Below are positions 4,226 to 30,471 of a stretch of 30,471 nt of DNA, in pieces. The number at the start of each line of letters is the position of its first letter. Position 1 is the stretch's first letter. Source of the stretch: a virus. The stretch is taken from positions 1-30,471 of IMG/VR virus record IMGVR_UViG_3300032829_000029; one strand, given 5' to 3'. The notes beneath the pieces were generated by a model. It ran no database searches. It saw only the letters and a program-made list of their open reading frames with translations, and had not been told where the DNA came from. Position numbers and translations under genes: made by a program.

Positions 4226-5227
4226 TCTCTTTCCTCAGTTCATCAATAATCATTTCATAATCCGTATAACTTATATCCATCAATTCTGATATCGTAATTG
4301 CTCCAAAAGTTGCTTTTGCTACTTGTAATCCTTCCAGAATGAATACGCGCCGATCAATATCGATATATCGCAAGCTTGATGCTACCCATTCCGTTCCTTC
4401 GGTCTGTACACCGTTTAGTTCGATGCCAGACCTGAAACGAAAAAATTACTCGTGTTAACCGTCGCCTCCCACACCTTACCGCACTCATAACATCGTTTCT
4501 CTACCGTCGATTGTAATCCGTACTTCTTGATCGGTTCATAAATTGATCGCATATCGGATTGATTCAGATTCTCGAAAATATAGACACCCCATTCAGCGCG
4601 GAACTTTGAATCAACATGTTCTGCATTCGCAGTAATAAGACAATTCTTATATAGAACAATCTGGAATCGTGTTCCGCCCGTTATTGATGTTTGTTTCGCC
4701 GTTAGAATGCAATCTCCGAGAGTAGGAATCCGAAGCTCGACAGAATCAATCTCCATCCTGAAAGATTCATCTTTGACGCTTTTAATTATAATAGGAGATT
4801 CAAATTGATATTGAATTGTATTTGTCGGTTGGTCTTCTACAGTAATAGCAAGATCAGAAATCCTGTCTCGCGTGTCGGAATCATCTTTCAGTTCCGCTAT
4901 GATCTTCTTACCACATCGAGGGCATGTATATATACCTTCGATATAATCCTGTGGATCGACAAGAAGCATAGTCTTGATTGCCACAAGTTCCGCCGATCGA
5001 TAAGGCATAGCCTTAATCAGTTCCTTGAGTTTTGCCGAATCATCAGTTATGTCATCATCGGAACTTATTGATTCTGTGCATCCGAGAATGAACTGATACA
5101 TAGCGGAATAGATGTCTCCGGTGCTCGCTGTCTCTTCAACATCGGCAAGCACCTTAACTTTAGGCTTTTTGATTTCTATATCGGTGTAAATCTTGTCATT
5201 CAGGAATATCGCCTTCGGTAGTTTCAC
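4206..5227 (-). CDS. Tail assembly chaperone, -1 frameshift product
   Basis: Ribosomes that slip back one base at the heptamer T TTT TTC (4445-4439) leave the zero frame after residue 263 and read 77 more codons to a TGA at 4208-4206. The product has 340 residues. The extension starts RFRSGIELNGVQTEG and contains a well-formed alpha/beta stretch (RYIDIDRRVFILEGLQVAKA...ELMDISYTDYEMIIDELRKE). The -1 frame has a TAA directly 5' of the heptamer and no start codon near its beginning, so it is explained only by frameshifting. In lambda (G/GT), Mu and many other phages the shifted form bridges the tube protein and the tape measure. Here it overlaps the tape measure start by 20 nt. Confidence 0.85.
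4415..5227 (-). CDS. Tail assembly chaperone, zero-frame product with zinc ribbon
   Basis: A 270-residue protein between the tail tube and tape measure genes. It resembles T4 gp26/gp51-type proteins (the T4 baseplate protein family), which act as tail assembly chaperones in many myoviruses. It has two CxxC knuckles, CPRC near residues 102-105 and CYEC near residues 248-251, that could form a structural zinc site. The start is GTG at 5227, with GGAGG 8 nt upstream in the end of the tube gene. This is the G-like short product. A slippery T TTT TTC at codons 262-263 allows a longer GT-like product, listed separately. Confidence 0.75.
   Translation of the reverse strand: MKLPKAIFLNDKIYTDIEIKKPKVKVLADVEETASTGDIYSAMYQFILGCTESISSDDDITDDSAKLKELIKAMPYRSAELVAIKTMLLVDPQDYIEGIYTCPRCGKKIIAELKDDSDTRDRISDLAITVEDQPTNTIQYQFESPIIIKSVKDESFRMEIDSVELRIPTLGDCILTAKQTSITGGTRFQIVLYKNCLITANAEHVDSKFRAEWGVYIFENLNQSDMRSIYEPIKKYGLQSTVEKRCYECGKVWEATVNTSNFFVSGLASN
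4439..4445 (-). promoter_or_regulatory. Slippery heptamer T TTT TTC for -1 frameshift
   Basis: In the zero frame the codons read AAT TTT TTC, which gives the X XXY YYZ heptamer T TTT TTC in the correct phase. After slippage both tRNAs re-pair on TTT TTT. It lies 21 nt before the zero-frame stop and directly after a TAA in the -1 frame. I did not find a strong downstream stem-loop by eye. Confidence 0.85.
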
Positions 5228-5638: not shown

Positions 5639-6486
5639 CGTTTATGTTCGTTATCAATCGCTATTTGATAACCGCCTTTCGGCTGCTCATGGTTCCCCAT
5701 GAGACCAGACTATATCATCGCTTTTCGGCGCCCCGTGCTTCCGCTCGCTTGAGCGTACTCCTTTCGGATAGTCGTTACACCTTCCGTTTATACGGCTCGG
5801 CTCGGTATTGCCCTATCTGGGTATCCACCGAATTCTCGGGGTTTAATCGGGACAATATTTCATCCCGCGTTTGCATATCGTTTCGCTCCTATCCTGCAAA
5901 ACTATTTTGCAGTATTATGTATTCTCTTTCAGAGTTATAAAAACTCTTACTTCTATACCATTCAAGAAAATCATTATTTGATTTACTTGAATTACATTTA
6001 GCGCAAGCCCCAAAAAGATTGTTTATTATGTGTTGCCCGCCTTTTGAAGTTGGAAATAAATGTTCTACACTTTTTTTATTTTTACTTCCACAATAACAAC
6101 AGCCTTCAAGAATATTAAATCTATCTATTAACTGTTTTCTTGTTATCCCTAAGTGTTCTTCAACGTTAGGATATTGATCAGGATGTAGAAGCATATGAAA
6201 TCCAAACATTTCTTTTTTTTGTTCTGGAGTTTTTTTATCTCCGTGAACCATTAAATATTTTTTATCACTTTTATGTTTAGATTCTTTGTATTTATCAGGG
6301 TTTCTTATTCTCCATTTTCTTGTTCTTTCAAGTTGCCCCTTTTTCTTTCCTGCTTCATGAAGTAAGAAAGAGCATGATTTGCTACATGCAATTTTTCTTT
6401 GATAATGTGTCTCAAATGTTGATCCGCAGATAATACATTTTCTTTTAAAAGATTTCATATTTATTTTCATGCTCTTATTATCTCAC
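5639..6486 (-). ncRNA. Group I intron containing an HNH gene
   Basis: The region 5' of the tube ATG has the hallmarks of a group I intron core. P7 strands are GACTAT (5773-5768) and ATAGTC (5713-5708, within the typical GATATAGTC block). P8 is CGCTC-AAGC-GAGCG (5755-5742). P9 is CTCATGG-GGAA-CCATGAG (5703-5686). It is followed by GCC-GAAA-GGC (5783... region 5683-5674) and an 8-bp stem GTTATCAA/TTGATAAC (5672-5650). Upstream of P7 lies the GGCAATACCGAGCC block expected for P5/P6. The 3' end is inferred at G5639 just before ATG. The 5' splice site is inferred after the T of GGAGAAT at 6487. P1 was not identified, so the 5' border is uncertain, but the 3' core is solid. Confidence 0.8.
5889..6470 (-). 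CDS. HNH homing endonuclease in group I intron
   Basis: A 193-residue protein with an N-terminal zinc-finger-like segment (CIICGSTF...CSKSC, about residues 12-33) and a C-terminal HNH nuclease: CCYCGSKNKKSVEHLFP, then NNLFGACAKCNSSKSN (about 119-165). The two CxxC pairs bind structural zinc, and the EH of SVEH and the Asn before FGAC are the expected catalytic positions. Such enzymes cut intronless alleles and drive intron homing. It is clearly richer in A+T than the flanking tail genes. Its last codons form a perfect 8-bp hairpin (CTGCAAAATAGTTTTGCAG, 5912-5894), suggesting the 3' end of the gene is also part of the intron fold. Confidence 0.85.
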   Translation of the reverse strand: MKINMKSFKRKCIICGSTFETHYQRKIACSKSCSFLLHEAGKKKGQLERTRKWRIRNPDKYKESKHKSDKKYLMVHGDKKTPEQKKEMFGFHMLLHPDQYPNVEEHLGITRKQLIDRFNILEGCCYCGSKNKKSVEHLFPTSKGGQHIINNLFGACAKCNSSKSNNDFLEWYRSKSFYNSEREYIILQNSFAG

Positions 6487-6493
6487 ATTCTCC

Positions 6494-8317
6494 TTAGAAT
6501 TGAAGCAATCCGGTTGAAATCACGATCGACGATGCCGGAGGCGGTGCGCTGAAATAAATGTAATAATTTCGCTGGCCAGCCTGTATCGTTGTTGCCGTGT
6601 TCACCGTTGCGTCTGATATTACCTGAAAATGATCTTCGAACTTTGAAAATGATCCATCCGGTAATTGATATTGACCGAACGTCTCACCTGCTGGAACCGA
6701 TCCAGTTGATCCTCTATCCCAGAGGGCTTGACCGAAGTTGAGAATAGCCATTTTACCAGCTTTGATTCTATCGTAACTATTCGGCTCGTTCACATCACCG
6801 CCGAGAGATTCTATACAAGAAATCTTGATATAATTTCGAAGCAGAATCGCGTTAGCATATTGATAAGCCGTAACTGTCGATGGAGTGAACAGGTTCATAA
6901 TTCTGATCCCCTGCCCGATGATGTTTCTGATCACGTTGACGCCAGCCGCCGCTACGAGCGTGCGGTTATCATCGTTGACAAGCTGATCTCCTTCAACATC
7001 ATTAACTCCCCGAAGTGTCACATTTGCTACAGCCGGTATTACGTGGATTCCGTTATTTGCGATATCCCATATCCATGCACCCATAACATGGCCTACCGGA
7101 GGAATTGCTCGATTAGGTGAATATACTGATGTATCGAACGGATTATCAACATACAACCAGTTTGCCACAAGTACAGCATCAACCTCGTTCGATCTCTGTA
7201 CATTATTTCCGAGTGTGATAAGTTGAGCCTGGCTTTGATTTTCTGGAAGGGTATAGATACATATCGGATTGTCATCTGTTCGAGCTGCACAATAAGTTTC
7301 GATTGCATCCTGTATTGATTTTGTACTTGTTTCTGGGTTTGCTATGAATCGCATCGGTAGATTATCGAAATTGGAGAGAGCATGAGACCAGTGAGAAGCT
7401 GTAGTAGGGGCTGTTCCATCTGCTCCATTTGTCGGATAAGACGGACTTGCTACATCTGCCGGGAAATCTTTATCCGGTGTTGACGGTGTAGTAGCTGCTC
7501 GTGTAATCTGTATCCATTTAGAGTTTTTAAAAATATTCGTAATATAATATTGAGTGACAGCCGAAGAAATAGAGCAGTAGGTTTTCCCAAGATCAGGATC
7601 AACCTCTGTGAGATATCCTGTAAGATCGAGTCTCCATACTCTGAGTCTAATTCCCCTGACTGTTGCTGCATCGGTTGCCGCGAGATTCGCGCTTGCATGG
7701 AATGCACCGGAAAAACTCACCTTTTTGAGGTTTTGATCTACTGCGGTAATGACCTTGTATACCGTCGCTCCACCGCCGCCCGTAGCTACGAATTTCATCG
7801 TATCTCCGATATTGATATCAGAAACCGAATTAAGAAGAGCAAAGGTATCGTCTTTTGTTCCTGTCGTCGCCACGGTTGTGGAAAATCTATCACCATTTGT
7901 GATTGTTATTCCTGTTCTATTACCACTTACTCCATATCCTAAGACATTGAGATAAGCATCTTTAATAGTGAGTAATGGATTTGAATCTCCATTGTTTACG
8001 ACTTGACTTGCTGTCACCGCATCAATCGCACTTCCTGTATATCCGACATACGAATTAACATAAAGTTTCGCACTTACACCGGACACGTTATCAAAAAATC
8101 CTTTGACCGCATCATATCCGTATGTTGTAGTGCTTATCTGTTTGCCGAAAATGGTTCTGAAATCATCGAACGTTTGCACGAGAAAAGCCTGATCATATTT
8201 CCGCTCGAATATTCCGAGAATTCCACCTATAGAGAAATCCGAGGGCGTTACCGATGAAGGCGCTTTGACCGGGAGATTCGCCCCATGTATCCCAAGTTTG
8301 CGCATATTAGTGCTCAC
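6494..8317 (-). CDS. Contractile tail sheath protein
   Basis: A 607-residue protein with sheath signatures. The N-terminus has SDFSIGGILGIFERKYDQAFLVQTFDDFRTIFGK (residues about 27-60), a segment typical of gp18/XkdK-like sheaths. The C-terminal domain has GVNVIRNIIGQGIRIMN followed by the NAILLRNYIKISC helix (about 465-505) and a final beta strand exchanged between subunits. About 300 residues between these are a variable, surface-exposed insertion region. The sheath contracts to drive the tube through the envelope, so this gene defines the phage as a myovirus. An AAGGAG overlapping its stop codon (6495-6490) appears to be the ribosome binding site of the next exon, the tube gene. Confidence 0.92.
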   Translation of the reverse strand: MSTNMRKLGIHGANLPVKAPSSVTPSDFSIGGILGIFERKYDQAFLVQTFDDFRTIFGKQISTTTYGYDAVKGFFDNVSGVSAKLYVNSYVGYTGSAIDAVTASQVVNNGDSNPLLTIKDAYLNVLGYGVSGNRTGITITNGDRFSTTVATTGTKDDTFALLNSVSDINIGDTMKFVATGGGGATVYKVITAVDQNLKKVSFSGAFHASANLAATDAATVRGIRLRVWRLDLTGYLTEVDPDLGKTYCSISSAVTQYYITNIFKNSKWIQITRAATTPSTPDKDFPADVASPSYPTNGADGTAPTTASHWSHALSNFDNLPMRFIANPETSTKSIQDAIETYCAARTDDNPICIYTLPENQSQAQLITLGNNVQRSNEVDAVLVANWLYVDNPFDTSVYSPNRAIPPVGHVMGAWIWDIANNGIHVIPAVANVTLRGVNDVEGDQLVNDDNRTLVAAAGVNVIRNIIGQGIRIMNLFTPSTVTAYQYANAILLRNYIKISCIESLGGDVNEPNSYDRIKAGKMAILNFGQALWDRGSTGSVPAGETFGQYQLPDGSFSKFEDHFQVISDATVNTATTIQAGQRNYYIYFSAPPPASSIVISTGLLQF

Positions 8318-24412: not shown

Positions 24413-24621
24413 TCGACTGCCTCCCAATCCAGAGCGAGAATGTCAGTCTGTGATGCGAACCATGGAACAAATAAATCTTGAACGTCTTTCATTTCGATAT
24501 AATCTCTTTCATGCGATAATTGAGATTTATGGATATGAATCCACATTCCTTTTCCATTCCATCCTGAACGAGCTATCTTTCTTCCCTTCTTTAGATTATC
24601 CAAAGCTGCTGAAAAATCCAT
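24409..24621 (-). CDS. Tad2-like (DUF2829) anti-Thoeris protein
   Basis: A 70-residue protein with the DUF2829 layout: MDFSAALDNLKKGRKIARSGWNGKG at the N-terminus and a C-terminal FVPWFASQTDILALDWEAVE. Proteins of this family in phages (Tad2) bind and sequester the cyclic ADP-ribose isomer made by the Thoeris ThsB TIR protein, so the ThsA effector is not activated. The start is ATG 24621, which has AGGAGGT 4 nt upstream. An upstream in-frame start would lie in the preceding gene. It is second in the late operon, whereas anti-defense genes are more often early. Function is inferred from the family, and binding residues cannot be checked by eye. Confidence 0.75.
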   Translation of the reverse strand: MDFSAALDNLKKGRKIARSGWNGKGMWIHIHKSQLSHERDYIEMKDVQDLFVPWFASQTDILALDWEAVE

Positions 24622-24623
24622 AT

Positions 24624-24923
24624 TTACCTCCTGTACCATACGAATAATCGATTGTTGATAATCTTAAACTTTCGAATAATTCCGGCATGACATTTTCTAA
24701 GTGATGAACAATTCTTAAAACACCATGAAGGAGTATCCGATATTCTAAAATTATCGATTTGCGAAAGATCGCAACTTTGTTCGATCATATAATTTCCTAA
24801 ATATATTTTATCATGCATTCCGTTTTCTATTATTTTTTTGTACATATAAGATATGAATATTTCTCTATCTTCTATGGTAATTTCATATGGGAAAAAACTA
24901 CGAATCCACTTAAATAATCTCAT
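24624..24923 (-). CDS. First gene of the late operon, small Cys-rich protein
   Basis: A 99-residue basic protein (MRLFKWIRSFFPYEITIEDREIFISYMYKKII...). Residues 62-85 contain CDLSQIDNF and a cluster of cysteines (SWCFKNCSSLRKCHAG) that could bind zinc. The start at ATG 24923 has an excellent AGGAGGT ribosome binding site 6 nt upstream, just after the leader hairpin. Its end contains the ribosome binding site of the Tad2-like gene. No family is recognised. Being directly behind the leader, it is the gene most exposed to its regulation. Confidence 0.6.
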   Translation of the reverse strand: MRLFKWIRSFFPYEITIEDREIFISYMYKKIIENGMHDKIYLGNYMIEQSCDLSQIDNFRISDTPSWCFKNCSSLRKCHAGIIRKFKIINNRLFVWYRR

Positions 24924-24941
24924 TCTTTTACCTCCTAAATT

Positions 24942-25009
24942 AAAGAGCCCGAGTACATCTGCGACGAAGTACGATCGGGCTCTTTTTATCGCCTCTTTTT
25001 GTCGCAGAT
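24942..25009 (-). promoter_or_regulatory. Pseudoknot leader A of the late operon
   Basis: Leader of the minus-strand transcript. The outer stem is AAAGAGCCCGA (24985-24975) with TCGGGCTCTTT (24952-24942). The inner stem is GTAC (24972-24969) with GTAC (24956-24953). The loop segment GTCGCAGAT (24965-24957) directly precedes the inner 3' strand and is fully complementary over 9 bp to ATCTGCGAC (25009-25001), which is at the predicted 5' end of the transcript. The ribosome binding site AGGAGG follows about 6 nt after the hairpin. It has the same plan as leaders at 25279, 27851 and 29995. Confidence 0.75.
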
Positions 25010-25014
25010 GATTC

Positions 25015-25043
25015 ACTTTACCATATTGTGGGGAAGATGTCAA
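25015..25043 (-). promoter_or_regulatory. Late operon promoter
   Basis: The minus strand has TTGACA (25043-25038), a 17-nt spacer and TAAAGT (25020-25015). Transcription would start near 25008, so the pseudoknot segment is the first part of the RNA. The -35 box lies within the first of three 18-bp repeats, suggesting regulation. Confidence 0.7.
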
Positions 25044-25086
25044 GCGGAAGTGGAATGTCATCCATGACTGGGATGTCATGGCTGTC
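25033..25086. repeat. Three 18-bp direct repeats at the late promoter
   Basis: ATGTCA occurs at 25037, 25055 and 25073, exactly 18 bp apart. The units are GAAGATGTCA, TGGAATGTCA and TGGGATGTCA plus 8 variable bases. A 14-bp inverted copy of the third unit, CATGACATCCCAGT, lies at 25145-25158 (partner ACTGGGATGTCATG at 25067-25080). Likely binding sites of a regulator of the late promoter, or iterons of an origin. Confidence 0.65.
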
Positions 25087-25237
25087 TATGGTTTTTGAAA
25101 AGTAGGTCACACGAGAGATAAATAATCTAGAAGTTTTGTAAACTCATGACATCCCAGTGCACGCCACTATAGAGATATTAGAGATTTGACGAGTTTCATC
25201 TATTATAGGGTGATTTTGAAAAGATTATTTTTTATGA
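25087..25237. other. Divergent intergenic region, A+T-rich
   Basis: Non-coding on both strands between the late and early transcription units. It contains the inverted operator copy (25145-25158), a 13-bp palindrome AGTTT-TGT-AAACT (25132-25144) and an A+T-rich stretch (25190-25237). The position next to the primase-helicase gene makes it the best candidate for a replication origin in the window, but I see no decisive origin signature. Confidence 0.4.
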
Positions 25238-25266
25238 TTGACATTTATTTTAGATAGGTATAATAT
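25238..25266 (+). promoter_or_regulatory. Early promoter P1
   Basis: TTGACA at 25238-25243. The -10 is either TAATAT (25261-25266, 17-nt spacer) or TATAAT (25259-25264, 15-nt spacer). The start would be near 25272, just before the first pseudoknot segment. It drives the primase-helicase operon. Confidence 0.75.
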
Positions 25267-25278
25267 GCACTTTGTTGA

Positions 25279-25355
25279 CTCACACCAACGGTGAAGCGTA
25301 TTTGTCGGGAGGGGGCGAGAGCCCGTGTGAGCCTCCCGGCTGATACGCTTTTTTT
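25279..25355 (+). promoter_or_regulatory. Pseudoknot leader P1
   Basis: Pairings: CTCACAC (25279-25285) with GTGTGAG (25325-25331). Outer stem AAGCGTAT (25294-25301) with ATACGCTT (25343-25350). Inner stem CGGGAGG (25306-25312) with CCTCCCG (25332-25338). An apical hairpin GGGC-GAGA-GCCC (25313-25324) fills the loop exactly, so helices abut with no unpaired bases. Seven T residues follow (25349-25355), then the ribosome binding site and the gene at 25373. Confidence 0.8.
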
Positions 25356-25372
25356 ATTGAAAGGAATGATAG

Positions 25373-25639
25373 ATGAAAAGACTTGAATCATACATGATGT
25401 ATAATTTTATTAGTCAATTTATAAAAGATAATTATATTTTGAAGAATAATACTATAATTTCTCTTGAAGAGATTTATATTAGATGGCTTTCATATTGCAA
25501 AAGTAAGAATATAAAAGTCTGTTCATCAAAACATAATGAATATTATAAATTGTCAAAAATGCTTGAATATATCGGTATTGAAAAGGTATGCAATTCTCCT
25601 ATTATATTAAGAGGCTTAATTTCAAAGAAAGTAGCTTAA
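25373..25639 (+). CDS. Small winged-helix-like protein related to primase C-terminus
   Basis: An 88-residue basic protein with AAGGAA upstream of ATG 25373. Residues 30-45 (LEEIYIRWLSYCKSKN) closely resemble the C-terminal segment of the adjacent primase-helicase (GELYQAYANYCKSMN). Both fit the helical part of the winged-helix domain that ends D5-type helicases. It may be a diverged free-standing copy that binds the origin or the helicase, or a small regulator. It is more A+T-rich than the helicase. The function is inference from this similarity and position. Confidence 0.55.
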   Translation: MKRLESYMMYNFISQFIKDNYILKNNTIISLEEIYIRWLSYCKSKNIKVCSSKHNEYYKLSKMLEYIGIEKVCNSPIILRGLISKKVA

Positions 25640-25640
25640 T

Positions 25641-27788
25641 ATGAGATCGTGGGTAGCTTCTCATTTTAAGGTTGCTTCACAATCGGGAGTTAATTGGTCG
25701 GTTTTTTGTCCTCTACACACAGACAATAATCCATCAGCTTCAGTTCATATCGAGAAGGGACTTTTCAATTGTCATAAATGCGGAGGTATGACGCTTGCAA
25801 AATTAGCGGATCAATTATTCTGGGATGCTCCTCCATCGCAATATAAACATAGTGACAGCAAGTTAACTATGCAGGAAGTAGCACGGTATGATTACACGGA
25901 TGAATCGGGACATGTGCTATATCAGCAAATAAGATATTTGATGTCAAATGGTGAAAAGAGTTTTCGCGGGTATAATCCAACAACGAAAGAATGGAAGCTT
26001 GAAGGTATTCGTCGTGTTCCATATCGTCTTCCAGAGCTATTGAAGGGGATAGAGCAGAAAAAACATATATTTATTGCTGAGGGTGAGAAGGACGTTGATA
26101 CTCTTGTAGACTGGGGATTTGTTGCAACTACCAATTCGAATGGAGCTCGATCTACAAAGCAGTGGAATGAGTTCGCACATTTCTTTTATGAGGGGATTCA
26201 AGTTTTTATTTGCCCCGATGCTGATATCGACGGCAAGCAATATGCGGAAATAATTAAGGCTATTTTAGAAAAAAGACGATGCAAGGTAAAAATACTTGAT
26301 TTCGGATATTCTATAACTGATAAACATGGAAAGGATGTAACAGACTGGAAAGCGGAAGGGAATACGCTTGATGATTTTATCAATCTGATAGGTGATTCGG
26401 CTACGGTGGAAGAGAAATCGATTGAACAGCCGCCCGTTGAAAGTGACTGGGGGCATGCTTGTACGCTTGCACCTTATTTCATGGGACGGTTTCGGTATGC
26501 CTTACATCGGAAATGCTGGATGGAATATACGGGCAAATTGTGGGAACCTATTAACGATGAGAAGCTTAATTGTATTGCTGCTGAGTTTTTACTGAAGCAT
26601 TATTTCGAACGTGTTCAAGTTTCTATGCAAGATTATGACAAAGAAGCGTTGAGCAGAGCTATGAAAGCATGGAGAGAATCACAGAAGTATTATAAGATTC
26701 AAGGCGCTGTCAATTTCTTGAAAGGCTGGAAAGGCCTATTGACACAATATTTTGAATGGGATCAATATCCGTGGCTATTGAATGTAAATAACGGCTTAAT
26801 CGATTTACATGATATGACACTAATCGATCATGATCCCGATAAACTGATCACGCAGATCGCGCCAGTGGATTACGATCCTACGGCTACGGGCGTTTTGTGG
26901 CAGTCACATCTTGAAAAGTTCTTGCCTGATGCGGATACAAGAAGGGAAGTACAGCGCAATCTCGGTCTTTCGATTTGCGGAGCGCAAAACTCTGAAATAT
27001 TCCCTATTTGGTACGGAACGGGAGCAAATGGGAAGAGCACGACGATCAAAGTCATTCAACAAGTACTCGGGAATTACGCTATTAAGGCGGCATCTGATAT
27101 TTTAATTGCTTCGAAGTTCGATAAGCATCCGGCAGAAATAGCCGATCTATGCGGAGCTCGATTGATTTTCTCGGTAGAAACTGATGATCAGAAAAGACTC
27201 GCTGAAGCTAAGGTTAAGGAATTGACAGGAGGCGATACCATGAAAGCCCGGAAGATGTACGGCGACTTTTTCCAATTTGAAAAGACATGGACTATTTTTC
27301 TATTGACAAATCATAAGCCAATTATCCATGGTACCGATCATGCCATATGGAGACGTATCCGACTGATTCCGTGGAATGTCAAAATAGAAGATAAAGAGAA
27401 GCTTCCACAGGACGAAGTGATTAAGTTGCTTGGAGATGAGAAACCGGCGATCTTGAATTGGTTATTGAACGGGCTCAAAGATTCGATCGACGATACAAAC
27501 TGGCAAGCTGAACAGGTAAGAGTTGCAACAGAGGACTATAAACATGATCAAGATTGTTTATCGGGATTTATAGACTCAGAGTGTGATATCGATTCGAATT
27601 ATAGAGTTGATACCGGAGAGCTTTATCAAGCATATGCTAATTATTGTAAAAGCATGAATGATGAACCATACAAAATGAGAACATTCACGAAAATGATGAA
27701 AGAACGTGAATATATAATTGTCCGCGGAACGGGGAATAAAAGTAATTTTGTGGGCTTGCGAATAAAAGGAAGTGAGCTTGATTTTTAG
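25641..27788 (+). CDS. Primase-helicase (CHC2 zinc, Toprim, SF3/D5)
   Basis: A 715-residue replication protein. A CHC2-type zinc motif lies at C23-x2-H26...C44-x2-C47. A Toprim-like domain has IFIAEGEKD (Glu147) and CPDADIDGK (Asp193, Asp195). A central D5-N-like segment follows (MEYTGKLWEPIND, NVNNGLIDLHDM). The SF3 ATPase has Walker A GTGANGKST (about 459-467), Walker B-like DLCGARLIFSVETD, and FLLTNHKPIIHGTDHAIWRR. A C-terminal winged-helix-like segment ends the protein. It primes and unwinds at the phage origin, like P4-alpha and other phage primase-helicases. It starts 2 nt after the previous gene without a clear ribosome binding site, implying coupling. Confidence 0.9.
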   Translation: MRSWVASHFKVASQSGVNWSVFCPLHTDNNPSASVHIEKGLFNCHKCGGMTLAKLADQLFWDAPPSQYKHSDSKLTMQEVARYDYTDESGHVLYQQIRYLMSNGEKSFRGYNPTTKEWKLEGIRRVPYRLPELLKGIEQKKHIFIAEGEKDVDTLVDWGFVATTNSNGARSTKQWNEFAHFFYEGIQVFICPDADIDGKQYAEIIKAILEKRRCKVKILDFGYSITDKHGKDVTDWKAEGNTLDDFINLIGDSATVEEKSIEQPPVESDWGHACTLAPYFMGRFRYALHRKCWMEYTGKLWEPINDEKLNCIAAEFLLKHYFERVQVSMQDYDKEALSRAMKAWRESQKYYKIQGAVNFLKGWKGLLTQYFEWDQYPWLLNVNNGLIDLHDMTLIDHDPDKLITQIAPVDYDPTATGVLWQSHLEKFLPDADTRREVQRNLGLSICGAQNSEIFPIWYGTGANGKSTTIKVIQQVLGNYAIKAASDILIASKFDKHPAEIADLCGARLIFSVETDDQKRLAEAKVKELTGGDTMKARKMYGDFFQFEKTWTIFLLTNHKPIIHGTDHAIWRRIRLIPWNVKIEDKEKLPQDEVIKLLGDEKPAILNWLLNGLKDSIDDTNWQAEQVRVATEDYKHDQDCLSGFIDSECDIDSNYRVDTGELYQAYANYCKSMNDEPYKMRTFTKMMKEREYIIVRGTGNKSNFVGLRIKGSELDF

Positions 27789-27789
27789 C

Positions 27790-27818
27790 TTGACAAATGA
27801 TACGCCATACTATATTGT
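27790..27818 (+). promoter_or_regulatory. Early promoter P2
   Basis: TTGACA (27790-27795), beginning one base after the primase-helicase stop codon, a 17-nt spacer and TATTGT (27813-27818). Predicted start near 27825. It drives the small-protein operon that begins at 27966. Confidence 0.65.
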
Positions 27819-27850
27819 ATATGTTGTTGGCAATAGCCATGCTGACAAAA

Positions 27851-27948
27851 CCAGGTAGAAGTTTAAAGAGCCTTTGCCGCTCGATGGGAATCGGAACTAC
27901 TTGGCCGAGTAGGTGGCCCCTACACCCTGAGAGCAGCGAAGGCTTTTT
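27851..27948 (+). promoter_or_regulatory. Pseudoknot leader P2
   Basis: Pairings: CCAGGTAG (27851-27858) with CTACTTGG (27897-27904), 8 bp with one G-U. Outer stem AGCCTTTGCCGCTC (27869-27882) with GAGCAGCGAAGGCT (27931-27944), 13 of 14 paired counting one G-U. Inner stem TCGG (27891-27894) with CCGA (27905-27908). A further hairpin GTAGG/CCTAC (27909-27923) follows. TTTTT ends at 27948, 7 nt before the AAGAAGGA ribosome binding site. It is the largest of the four leaders. Confidence 0.7.
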
Positions 27949-27965
27949 ATTTTAAGAAGGAAAGA

Positions 27966-28382
27966 ATGAAGATTTATAAACTAGAAGATGGTGAATATTC
28001 TGATTATCGTGTAATAGGAATATTCACAACGAAAGAAAATGCGAAGAAAGTTCAAAAGATTGTCGGTGGTGAAATTGTTGAAGACAAAACTGATCCCGAT
28101 ATCTATCAAATAAATAAGGGGCTATTTCGTTATAGAGTTGCCATGTTGAGAGATGGAACAACAAAATCAATAGAGCTTAATGATTTACAACGTGAAGTTG
28201 GTTCTCCTGAGAAAATAAGTATTATTCGTCGATCTAAATATTGGCCACCCGGAATGCCTGATGATATATTAATGCCTGCTGATATATTAAATGCTATCAT
28301 ATGGGCAAAAGATGAACAGCACGCAATCAAAATAGTAAACGAAAAGCGAATCCAACTTATCGCAAATAACGAATGGCTATAA
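27966..28382 (+). CDS. Unknown small early protein
   Basis: A 138-residue protein (MKIYKLEDGEYSDYRVIGIFTTKENAKKVQKIVGGEIVED...). The N-terminal 40 residues have the beta-alpha pattern common in small phage proteins of unknown function in which a YS-x-Y-x-I-x-G-I-F-x-T-x-E-x-A motif occurs. The C-terminus has AIIWAKDEQHAIKIVNEKRIQLIANNEWL, a second similar beta-alpha unit, so it may be an internal duplication (KENAKKVQK versus DEQHAIKIVNE). The ribosome binding site is AAGGAAAGA. No function assigned. Confidence 0.6.
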   Translation: MKIYKLEDGEYSDYRVIGIFTTKENAKKVQKIVGGEIVEDKTDPDIYQINKGLFRYRVAMLRDGTTKSIELNDLQREVGSPEKISIIRRSKYWPPGMPDDILMPADILNAIIWAKDEQHAIKIVNEKRIQLIANNEWL

Positions 28383-28394
28383 TAGGAGGTAATA

Positions 28395-28565
28395 GTGAAA
28401 ATAATTTGTGTCGAATGTGGTCTTGAGTTTGAGATACAGGCGTGGTTACTGCAAAGCATATGTCCGCGATGCCAGCGTATCCAGCCGATTGACCCTGATC
28501 CGATAGTCGATCTTGCAGACAAGGATGACGGACAAACATTATTGTTTGAGGACGATGAAGAATGA
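28395..28565 (+). CDS. Small zinc-ribbon protein
   Basis: A 56-residue protein with a GTG start at 28395 behind a perfect AGGAGGT. The N-terminus is KIICVECGLEFEIQAWLLQSICPRCQ: two CxxC knuckles (C5/C8 and C23/C26) forming a zinc ribbon. The C-terminus is acidic (DPDPIVDLADKDDG...EDDEE), which could mimic DNA or bind a protein partner. The stop overlaps the next gene (ATGA). Such small zinc-ribbon, acidic-tail proteins in early phage operons may be inhibitors or transcription modulators. That is inference. Confidence 0.65.
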   Translation: MKIICVECGLEFEIQAWLLQSICPRCQRIQPIDPDPIVDLADKDDGQTLLFEDDEE

Positions 28566-28744
28566 GACGCACTCCACGTAAAGATTGTCTCAATTATGCT
28601 TCCGTCGCTCTTTCTCGTTTTACAAAAGAATGGCTTGATAATACAAGCAAGGCTACGGGCAAAAGTAGAGCATGGATAATCGAAGATGCGCTGCTTGATA
28701 GTCTACCGGAAGAGTATATGCCTGCCGTTGGCAATAGCATATAA
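28562..28744 (+). CDS. Ribbon-helix-helix-like DNA-binding protein
   Basis: A 60-residue protein. The segment YASVALSRFTKEWLDNTSKATGKSRAWIIEDALLDSLPEE (residues 12-51) matches the ribbon-helix-helix pattern: a beta strand (SVALS), helix, a GKSRAWI turn with the usual S-R/A-x-I, and a second helix. The N-terminus is basic (MRRTPRKD). It may be a repressor of phage promoters and a candidate ligand of the 18-bp repeats at 25033. It is translationally coupled to the zinc-ribbon gene. Confidence 0.6.
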   Translation: MRRTPRKDCLNYASVALSRFTKEWLDNTSKATGKSRAWIIEDALLDSLPEEYMPAVGNSI

Positions 28745-28825
28745 AAATAGTAGCGCCGCTCCGTATGGAGGGTGATCTTTGAAACATAGAAAAGGATAAT
28801 TGTCGAGTAAAGAAAAGATGTAGAC

Positions 28826-28861
28826 GAGACCGAAAGCCCCCGTAGGTGGTTCTCCGGGGGC
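28826..28861 (+). other. Hairpin upstream of tRNA-like gene
   Basis: A 7-bp stem GCCCCCG (28836-28842) with CGGGGGC (28855-28861). The loop segment GGTTCTC (28848-28854) directly precedes the 3' strand and could pair with GAGACC (28826-28831) with one bulge. This resembles the four pseudoknot leaders but has no U-run and no clear promoter. It may be a degenerate fifth copy. Confidence 0.4.
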
Positions 28862-28865
28862 GCAA

Positions 28866-28943
28866 GCGAGCGTGGTGGAATGGCATACACGTTATCCCTA
28901 GACGGGACGCAAACGCATGAGGGTTCGACTCCCTCCGCTCGCA
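28866..28943 (+). tRNA. tRNA-Leu-like gene with irregular anticodon arm
   Basis: A 78-nt cloverleaf: acceptor stem GCGAGCG/CGCTCGC (7 bp), discriminator A, D-arm GTGG...CAC typical of tRNA-Leu, and T-arm GAGGG-TTCGACT-CCCTC. The anticodon arm is poor. The standard register gives anticodon UAG (Leu) but with C at position 33 and only weak pairing. Shifting by one base gives a better stem and anticodon AGA with U33. The variable arm is short for tRNA-Leu and CCA is not encoded. It is either a decayed or unusual phage tRNA. The methyltransferase frame runs through it. Confidence 0.65.
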
Positions 28944-29761
28944 TAGGAAGTGAGGGAAGAATTAATAGAATCGAGCTTTTCAATGATCATTTTCAAAACT
29001 TTAAAAAATATGGTATCCCTAAAGCCCAACTCGTATTAACCGATATCCCTTATAATGTGGGGGTCAATGCTTACGGCTCGAATCCGATGTGGTATATAGA
29101 TGGCGATAACAAAAATGGCGAAAGTAAACTTGCCGGGAAGACATTCTTTGATACTGATGAAAGATTTAAGATTCCTGAATTCCTCGCATTTTGTACAAGG
29201 ATGTTAAAGCCGGAACCAAAGGAACGCGGCGAGGCCTCCTGTATGGTGGTGTTTTGTGCATTCGATCAGCAATGGATATTAATCGAAGAGGCGAAGCGGC
29301 ATGGTCTTAACAACTATATCAATCTTGTATTTCGAAAAGATTATTCGGCGCAAGTACTCAAGGCCAATATGCGTATAGTAGGGAATTGCGAATACGCTCT
29401 TGTTCTTTATCGAGAAAAACTTCCTAAATTTAGAAATAATGGTCGGATGGTTTTTAACTGCTTGGATATGCCAAGAGATAATAAAACGCCGAAAGTGCAT
29501 CCAACTCAAAAAAGCTTGCCATTAATAGAATTGTTAATCAGAATATTCACCGATGAAAATGACGTTGTTATTGATCCATGCGCCGGGAGTGGGGTCACAC
29601 TTCTTGCGGCGGCTAATCTTAATCGATTAGGATATGGATTTGAGATTAAAAAAAACTATTTCAAGGATGCTAACGGAAAAATATTATCTTGCGTTAATAA
29701 ATATCTCTTTATCGATGAAAATAAAGAAGATATTGAAATAATCCAAGGAGAATTGATATGA
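28880..29761 (+). CDS. DNA methyltransferase (beta class)
   Basis: Up to 293 residues. Motif IV is LVLTDIPYN (residues 51-59), and the AdoMet-binding motif I comes later as VVIDPCAGSGVTLLAAANLNRLGYGFEI (about 228-255), preceded by HPTQKSLPLIELLIR (motif X-like). This order (IV then I) marks a beta-class N6-adenine or N4-cytosine methyltransferase, which may protect phage DNA from restriction. The only standard in-frame start before motif IV is ATG 28880 inside the tRNA-like gene. The first conserved-looking residues are at about 29 (NRIELFNDHF). An ATT at 28961 after AGGAAGTGAGGGA is a possible non-canonical start. The true start is unresolved. Confidence 0.82.
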   Translation: MAYTLSLDGTQTHEGSTPSARIGSEGRINRIELFNDHFQNFKKYGIPKAQLVLTDIPYNVGVNAYGSNPMWYIDGDNKNGESKLAGKTFFDTDERFKIPEFLAFCTRMLKPEPKERGEASCMVVFCAFDQQWILIEEAKRHGLNNYINLVFRKDYSAQVLKANMRIVGNCEYALVLYREKLPKFRNNGRMVFNCLDMPRDNKTPKVHPTQKSLPLIELLIRIFTDENDVVIDPCAGSGVTLLAAANLNRLGYGFEIKKNYFKDANGKILSCVNKYLFIDENKEDIEIIQGELI

Positions 29762-29955
29762 CCATACATATGCCGAATTACGATTTACGCGATACGCCAA
29801 GGTTCCGAGATGCGTGGATAATCCGATACATTACCGGGCTTTATGGTTCGCGGTGCGATGAGTATTGTAAAATGAACCATGTGCGATTCAGAGCCGATAA
29901 TGACCGGTTCAACGAAGAGGAAAAAGTCGATTTATTCCATAAAAAATATTGTTGA
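29758..29955 (+). CDS. Small protein coupled to the methyltransferase
   Basis: A 65-residue protein (MTIHMPNYDLRDTPRFRDAWIIRYITGLYGSRCDEYCKMNHVRF...) starting with ATGA over the methyltransferase stop. It has CDEYC and a terminal KKYC. No family is recognised. Its stop codon is embedded in the -35 box of the next promoter. Confidence 0.55.
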   Translation: MTIHMPNYDLRDTPRFRDAWIIRYITGLYGSRCDEYCKMNHVRFRADNDRFNEEEKVDLFHKKYC

Positions 29956-29980
29956 CAATCTGTAGGCCGTATGCTATAGT
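29952..29980 (+). promoter_or_regulatory. Early promoter P3
   Basis: TTGACA (29952-29957), overlapping the stop of the preceding gene, a 17-nt spacer and TATAGT (29975-29980). Predicted start near 29987, just before the first pseudoknot segment. The best consensus match of the early promoters. Confidence 0.75.
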
Positions 29981-29994
29981 TTAAGGCGTTACGA

Positions 29995-30080
29995 CTGGAA
30001 GCGTGACGTATAGCCGATTGAATCGGTACGCTTTCCCTTCCGGGAGACTTCCAGGGCGTACCGATCGAGTCGGCTTTTTT
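29995..30080 (+). promoter_or_regulatory. Pseudoknot leader P3
   Basis: Pairings: CTGGAAG (29995-30001) with CTTCCAG (30048-30054). Outer stem AGCCGA (30012-30017) with TCGGCT (30070-30075). Inner stem TCGGTACGC (30023-30031) with GCGTACCGA (30056-30064). An apical hairpin TTTCCC-TTCC-GGGAGA (30032-30047) abuts the loop segment. Six T residues (30075-30080) precede a GGAGGTGA ribosome binding site. The layout is the same as leader P1 with different bases throughout. Confidence 0.8.
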
Positions 30081-30093
30081 GTTGGAGGTGATT

Positions 30094-30471
30094 ATGAACG
30101 AGGGGCGATTGATATACGAGGTTGAACTACGCGAAGCAAATCTGTTTGTAAAGCAGCATCATAGACATCATAAGCCGGTTCAAGGGCATAAATGGAGTCT
30201 CGGCCTTTACGAGAATCAAAAACTTGTTGGAGTGGCAATTTGTGGTCGGCCAGTCGCAAGGAATCTTGATGATGGAAAAACTATCGAAGTGACGCGACTC
30301 TGTACTGATGGTACTCGCAATGCATGTTCTCAGCTTTATGCAGCAAGTGCAAAGAGAGCGAAAAAAGTTGGATACAAAAAAATCATCACCTATATTTTAG
30401 AGAGCGAAACAGGAGCAAGCTTGAAAGCAAGCGGATGGGCTTTTGCCGGTATTTGTGGTGGTGGCTCATGG
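30094..30471 (+). CDS. XF1762-family protein, 5' part only
   Basis: A 126-codon open frame cut by the right edge, starting at ATG 30094 behind GGAGGTGATT. The sequence KQHHRHHKPVQGHKWSLGLY, VGVAICGRPVARNLDDGKTIEV, TRLCTDGTRNACSQLY, and KIITYILESETGASLKASGW is the conserved pattern of the XF1762 family, which is common in phages and mobile elements and resembles a GNAT acyltransferase fold. The substrate is unknown. It is expressed from its own promoter and pseudoknot leader. Confidence 0.85.
   Translation, partial: MNEGRLIYEVELREANLFVKQHHRHHKPVQGHKWSLGLYENQKLVGVAICGRPVARNLDDGKTIEVTRLCTDGTRNACSQLYAASAKRAKKVGYKKIITYILESETGASLKASGWAFAGICGGGSW

Follow-up and report, generated by a model that had tools for sequence, protein, structure and literature searches.

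Four operon leaders with a common plan

The stretch of DNA considered here, referred to below as the window, is the 30,471-base virus record IMGVR_UViG_3300032829_000029. Its structural genes (terminase, portal, sheath and tape measure) lie on the minus strand, and the portal protein has the Leptospira phages LE3 and LE4 as its sole relatives in the phage records (37%). From 25.3 kb onwards the plus strand carries early-type genes, namely a D5/toprim primase-helicase, small proteins, a tRNA-Ser, a DNA methyltransferase and a Mom-like modification gene. Four operons of the window are each preceded by a leader (P1 to P4) that follows a common plan: a sigma70 promoter, a 5' segment of 7-10 nucleotides (nt), here called A, and a terminator hairpin with the complementary segment A' in its loop. 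These leaders represent a class that is real, conserved in structure and not described in the sources examined. They probably constitute an RNA switch on the transcription of mostly early and replication genes, because the pairing is kept in unrelated phages despite changed letters. The leaders and the genes that follow them are arranged as listed here, H1 being the hairpin that displays A.

24624-24923, minus: first open reading frame (ORF) after leader P1, no family match
24942-24985, minus: P1 terminator-like hairpin, AAAGAGCCCGA / TCGGGCTCTTT, inner GTAC/GTAC
25001-25010, minus: P1 segment A, CATCTGCGAC, no flanking hairpin
25015-25043, minus: P1 promoter, TTGACA at 25043-25038, 17-nt spacer, TAAAGT at 25020-25015
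25238-25266, plus: P2 promoter, TTGACA, 17-nt spacer, TAATAT; alternative -10 box TATAAT at 15-nt spacing
25274-25289, plus: P2 H1, GTTG[ACTCACAC]CAAC, 8-base loop with A = CTCACAC at 25279-25285
25294-25355, plus: P2 terminator hairpin, 18 base pairs (bp), apical hairpin 25313-25324, U7
25373-27788, plus: P2 operon, small ORF 25373-25639, then primase/helicase 25641-27788 (D5_N, zinc-ribbon, toprim)
27790-27818, plus: P3 promoter, TTGACA, 17-nt spacer, TATTGT
27824-27864, plus: P3 5' hairpin 27824-27848, then weak H1 AAAC[CAGGTAGAA]GTTT at 27848-27864
27870-27948, plus: P3 terminator hairpin, GCCTTTGC / GCGAAGGC plus inner stem, U5
27966-28744, plus: start of the P3 operon, DUF7336 protein, zinc-ribbon-like and RHH small proteins
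29952-29980, plus: P4 promoter, TTGACA, 17-nt spacer, TATAGT
29986-30009, plus: P4 H1, GCGTTACG[ACTGGAAG]CGTGACGT, 8-bp stem, 8-base loop
30012-30080, plus: P4 terminator hairpin, 19 bp, apical hairpin 30034-30045, U6
30094-30471, plus: Mom-like DNA-modification gene after leader P4, extending past the window end

An initial annotation of the sequence had placed four leaders at these positions, and all of them are present, each with a sigma70-like promoter, a 5' segment A, a terminator-type hairpin and the complement A'. Among the sigma70-like sites of 24600-30471 the four promoters rank within the best six, the remaining two lying inside coding sequence. Judged by sequence, a predicted intrinsic terminator then separates each promoter from the first gene, as is characteristic of an attenuator leader, and the U-runs immediately precede the start codon; the U-run of P1 is weak (CUCUUUAAUUU). 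In P2, A' (GTGTGAG, 25325-25331) lies directly 5' of the terminator 3' strand (25332-25350). Leader P4 has A (CTGGAAG, 29995-30001) in the H1 loop, A' (CTTCCAG) at 30048-30054 and the terminator 3' strand at 30056-30075. The A segment of P3 (CCAGGTAG, 27851-27858) lies within the 9-base loop of the weak H1 and pairs with CTACTTGG at 27897-27904 with one G-U; the inner stem is ambiguous, as the minimum-energy fold pairs A' with a downstream TAGGTGG. P1 deviates from the plan: its A' (GTCGCAGATG, 24965-24956) forms 10 bp with A (25010-25001), and both H1 and the apical hairpin are absent. In P2 and P4 the loop region of the terminator holds, towards its 5' side, an additional apical hairpin. The long-range pairing is real, but the description as a plain pseudoknot has to be revised: since A is the loop of H1 in P2, P4 and, weakly, P3, the contact is better described as an intramolecular kissing loop.

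Occurrence in other phages

The phage records contained no close DNA relative of the window, a single-sequence primase search of viral contigs yielded no relative, and TerL or primase alignments returned nothing from genome contigs. Two contigs with related primases were reached via the methyltransferase and the primase: L013 (also numbered L012) encodes a primase that matches that of the window at 71%, and the corresponding value for L111 is 65%. L013 carries leaders at 5762 and 10802 and L111 at 9786 and 14583, in each case one just before the primase operon and a second further down, with -35 boxes of the TTGACA or TTGACG type. Leader L111_1 (TTGCTT[ATCGCGC]GAGCAA, a 2-nt linker, an apical hairpin and A' against the 3' strand) closely matches P2 and P4 of the window. 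The L013 and L111 leaders have no sequence in common with those of the window. Taken together, the plan recurs eight times among three phages whose primases are related but whose leader sequences are not. Contig G002, a structural relative of the window, lacks the primase and shows no convincing leader. The relatives of the window's Mom protein belong to unrelated phages, and no leader was found upstream of Mom at the places read.

Cultured phages carry the element as well. In Flavobacterium phage 11b a leader lies upstream of PHG11b_62 (A CGGGCAG, A' CTGCCCG), and in the tooticki/lillamy/hemulen group, in morran9-1 and in the snusmum/mumin/mymlan group one is found upstream of a small ORF. 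In tooticki this ORF is followed by a hypothetical protein and the primase, and in elemoA the leader precedes a small ORF, a replication protein and the primase. In tooticki, lillamy and mumin, phages of Flavobacterium sp. LMO6/LMO9, transcription would be expected to start at TATATTTG sites, and the kissing letters differ among the three. The tooticki and elemoA leaders were read from the sequence by eye and were not called by the automatic descriptor described below. In both, A' is nearer to the 5' side of the loop (for elemoA according to our own reading), so that the position of A' next to the terminator 3' strand, which the initial annotation had taken as part of the plan, is common but not universal. 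Bacteroides phage C3_41T2LP and Leptospira phage LE1 showed no convincing element in the parts that were read.

Two further arrangements of complementary segments stand out. In L045 (10835-10960), GCGAGGAC and ATTTTATGCGTG lie upstream of one terminator and are each complementary to a segment of its loop, possibly a double element. In L006 (Leptospira phage LE4, around 4323-4450), TTTTCTCCCAA is complementary to TTGGGAGAAAA just before a start codon; TTGGGAGAAAA may contain the ribosome binding site, which would make this a different, translation-type leader.

Covariation and tests against chance

Covariation in independent phages is the decisive evidence for the predicted leader architecture. 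The window's own leaders are too diverged to be aligned; the covariation comes from these other phages, in which the structures likewise lie upstream of genes. The Flavobacterium alignment comprises four distinct sequences, in which 116 of 116 cells are paired; three of the eight pairs of the kissing helix are changed on both sides and none is broken (GTGAGACG/CGTCTCAC, GTGAGAAG/CTTCTCAC, GTGGAACG/CGTTCCAC). When the partner was slid by 1-3 columns, compensatory pairs dropped to zero. Between L056 and L061, compensation is seen in 4 of 8 kissing pairs, in two pairs of H1 and in two of the inner terminator stem. L046 and L050 differ by compensation in 2 of 8 kissing pairs, a further pair being broken in one sequence. 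The structures were drawn from one member per set, a procedure that favours the percentage of paired cells but not compensatory change.

Could the leaders nevertheless be ordinary terminators, their complementarity being a product of coincidence and of selection by the reader? The concern that nested complementarity arises by chance is justified for generic searches: loose descriptors match shuffled sequence as often as real sequence or better, and the plan alone therefore proves little. Dinucleotide shuffling of the 5' segments gave p = 0.0025, 0.092, 0.085 and 0.013 for P1 to P4, so that P2 and P3 taken singly reach only p ~0.09; combined by Fisher's method the value is ~2e-4. An early hairpin descriptor was not specific either, and specificity was reached only after H1 and the promoter had been added. 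The resulting descriptor, which requires H1, kissing helix, terminator and promoter, was run on 200 strands of fetched contigs, a sample that is not random because most contigs were fetched for a related methyltransferase. It gave 17 promoter-bearing matches, compared with 0 at the same cut-off when the upstream region was reversed; these counts are approximate because a few matches duplicate one sequence (L060/L065). Expressed per terminator, 15 of the 163 hairpins with a good upstream promoter have the pattern. After reversal the figure was 0 of 163 (Fisher, 4e-5), and among the 1843 terminators that lack a promoter it was 22 (5e-8). This association with promoters and the compensatory changes in three independent homologous sets make coincidence extremely improbable.

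Many of the promoters among the matches are of the Bacteroidetes type (TAnnTTTG), including those of several metagenomic phages unrelated to the window; others are of the sigma70 type. The first downstream genes include apparent replication proteins and primases (L050, L037, L023, L055, L045) and small ORFs of no assigned function; tblastn backs the calls for L050, L055 and L037. A scan with the pattern of the L046 family gave mostly chance matches outside leaders.

The pairing is also specific to each leader. In a 25 x 25 table, every A-side segment was set against every terminator loop from the window leaders, their relatives and unrelated phages; matched combinations averaged -16.7 kcal/mol and unmatched ones -6.9 kcal/mol. 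For 21 of the 25 segments, including all four A segments of the window, the own loop is the best partner; as the elements were picked for good pairing, the table speaks for orthogonality and is not an independent measure of significance.

Comparison with known systems

No Rfam family matches the leaders, a result that for the window rests mainly on a permissive search of 24900-30120 because the whole-window search at gathering thresholds missed the tRNA, which the permissive one detected. RF01695 (C4) gave no match in 24900-30120 at E-values up to 2, and RF01394 (isrK) none to the window leaders; the same two models match neither the Flavobacterium leaders nor L046, L050, L037 and L045. As a positive control, satellite phage P4 scored 74.9 bits for C4 and 60.8 bits for isrK. 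A description of kissing-loop terminators in phage leaders was not found in the open-access papers searched.

By analogy, satellite phage P4 is the nearest functional precedent. There, CI RNA produced from the leader itself cuts short the transcription of the replication genes (PMC4825925). The CI/C4 system (RF01695, seqA/seqC, with the isrK-like leader RF01394) resembles the new leaders in its short complementary segments within a leader and in a loop complementary to an upstream segment; as proposed for the new leaders, these segments control premature termination before a replication (primase) operon. It differs in that the antisense RNA is processed, has two target sites and is conserved in sequence, whereas the new leaders hold both partners in one 90-150-nt unit with an intrinsic terminator and U-run, and occur up to four times per phage. 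On the minus strand of satellite phage P4 (L126), GTGAGAA is found in two hairpin loops, at 8667-8661 and around 8416-8410, both complementary to TTCTCAC (8448-8442) of the C4-type RNA.

The precedent raises the possibility of immunity or feedback in trans, in which the free A and A' loops of a terminated leader would bind A or A' of new transcripts of the same operon and alter their termination; the differing letters of the leaders would keep the circuits separate. The silencing of the satellite P4 replication operon by CI RNA (PMC4825925) would be a model for this, each A segment of the window pairs best with its own A', and a 2-nt linker makes pairing in trans easier than in cis. In addition, the untuned descriptor finds one match in satellite phage P4 (8448-8396, minus; TTCTCAC with GTGAGAA in a hairpin loop), in and just past the Rfam C4 match at 8507-8420, within the immunity region. 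This match is suggestive only, because 7 of 60 shuffled P4 genomes also match (~0.13 matches per shuffled genome), and its hairpin lacks a clear U-run. Furthermore, no second copy of A or A' above expectation occurs elsewhere in the window, and the leaders match neither C4 nor isrK. We regard such a role in trans as unlikely. A combined scheme, in which the matched loops set termination in cis and the released short RNA also acts in trans, but exclusively on the operon it came from, would make the leaders a widespread class with private kissing-loop codes; it is quite doubtful at present.

The initial annotation had also considered a role like that of the put RNA of phage HK022. Both are phage RNAs near the 5' end of early transcripts, with an effect on termination that for the new leaders is proposed. 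The put sites are ~70 nt long, have copies similar in sequence and two stem-loops, contain no built-in terminator and, through binding to the zinc-binding domain of beta', influence terminators that lie far away (PMC9378689). The new leaders have a U-run terminator and no sequence in common, so that a put-like element is not supported. More generally, the kissing fold could shape a structure on which an antitermination protein, of phage or host, or RNA polymerase itself docks, as at lambda N/Q, LoaP or put sites. Promoter-proximal terminators at several operons, four in the window, are typical of phage antitermination. Nevertheless, the leaders of one phage have no common sequence motif, whereas put is conserved in sequence (PMC9378689), and the element is found with both sigma70 and Bacteroidetes-type promoters, which renders a docking site very unlikely.

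Plasmids pT181 and pIP501 are controlled by antisense-RNA attenuation through kissing complexes. In RnaG/icsA, attenuation is likewise exerted by a separate antisense RNA (PMC5394118). Loop contacts that decide whether a leader terminator forms are common to these systems and, as proposed, to the new leaders, in which however the partner is in cis. The opposite strands of seven of the eight leaders have no antisense promoter (at most 3 mismatches); two weak 9-of-12 matches occur near P2. IsrK of the prophage Gifsy-1 also comprises a promoter and a terminator, and it is found both as a short terminated RNA and as a readthrough mRNA (PMC4825925), but it is a trans activator of translation and a member of a sequence family. 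A hepatitis delta virus-like ribozyme, with A as its helix P1, the stem as P2, the apical hairpin as P3 and a similar strand order, was considered and rejected: the P4 helix and the catalytic junction are missing, and A' abuts the 3' strand.

Proposed mechanism

The reading that we favour, at a probability of just under one half, is that of a kinetic attenuator: A would pair with A' before the 3' strand of the terminator is released, and this pairing would promote readthrough. A promoter-proximal attenuator with a kinetic element, as first suggested for the four leaders, is consistent with the pairing, the promoter-like sites and the terminators. RNA polymerase would start at the leader promoter and first produce A, usually displayed in the H1 loop. 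The 5' strand of the terminator would be made next, followed by A' just ahead of the terminator 3' strand. While this strand is still within the polymerase, A could take up A' as a kissing loop; the kissing pairing would slow or block closure of the terminator, and the polymerase would read into the operon. If A is unavailable, the terminator would close and only a short RNA would be released. The availability of A would thus presumably be the regulated step.

Geometry offers some guidance. H1 and the terminator are separated by linkers of 2 nt in P2, P4 of the window and L111_1, and of ~5 nt in P3. According to a simple rod estimate (2.8 Å per base pair, 6 Å per linker base), H1, the kissing helix and the full terminator cannot coexist in these four leaders, which suggests that the pairing opposes the terminator in leaders with short linkers. 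Several observations weigh against a general attenuator. Where the linker measures 13-34 nt, as in the Bacteroidetes-type leaders and in L013_2/L111_2, kissing pairing and terminator can form together, so that mutual exclusion is not general and would have to be kinetic there. The terminator hairpins are predicted to be far more stable than the kissing helix, and any effect of the pairing must therefore be kinetic. P1 has no H1 at all, and scanning revealed no convincing element in the isolates phi46:1, Leef_1 and BT-TP2 and in part of ctfjg026.

The long linkers of many members, in which both structures can coexist, would also fit a contact that shields either the terminated RNA or the mRNA 5' end from nucleases, with a fixed attenuation ratio and possibly a stable small RNA as product. 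The RNAs are compact, with a 5' hairpin and a 3' terminator. Such protection would leave unexplained the short-linker members, where the two structures are incompatible, and the position directly before start codons; we consider it rather improbable.

Further sequence features

The divergent region between P1 and P2 contains a perfect 15-base inverted repeat at 25067-25158 (ACTGGGATGTCATGG ... TCATGACATCCCAGT), which is operator- or iteron-like and has an additional partial copy near 25057. A tRNA-Ser(AGA) gene lies within an operon (28745-28943), with GC-rich hairpins upstream (GCCCCCGTAGGTGGTTCTCCGGGGGC). The succession of an N4/N6-type DNA methyltransferase and the Mom-like gene (28880-30471) points to a possible unusual DNA modification. 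In contig G002 (L008), a strong hairpin (GGAGGGATGGCTA / TAGCCGTTCCTCC) lies behind promoter-like sites at 6306-6520, between structural genes.

Significance

RNA control of early genes is known in detail for only a few phages, as exemplified by lambda N/Q, HK022 put and the CI RNA of satellite phage P4. The leader element is found behind promoters of both the sigma70 and the Bacteroidetes type, with cultured Flavobacterium phages among its carriers, and it escapes Rfam-style searches because its structure is kept while the sequence turns over completely. If cis codes were combined with feedback in trans, the result would be operon-specific RNA feedback or an immunity to superinfection that is based on RNA and diversifies through compensatory changes in the loops. 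If the attenuator reading is correct, many phages whose early regulation is unexplained would carry a small RNA switch before their replication genes, and the matched loops would represent natural, mutually orthogonal attenuators.

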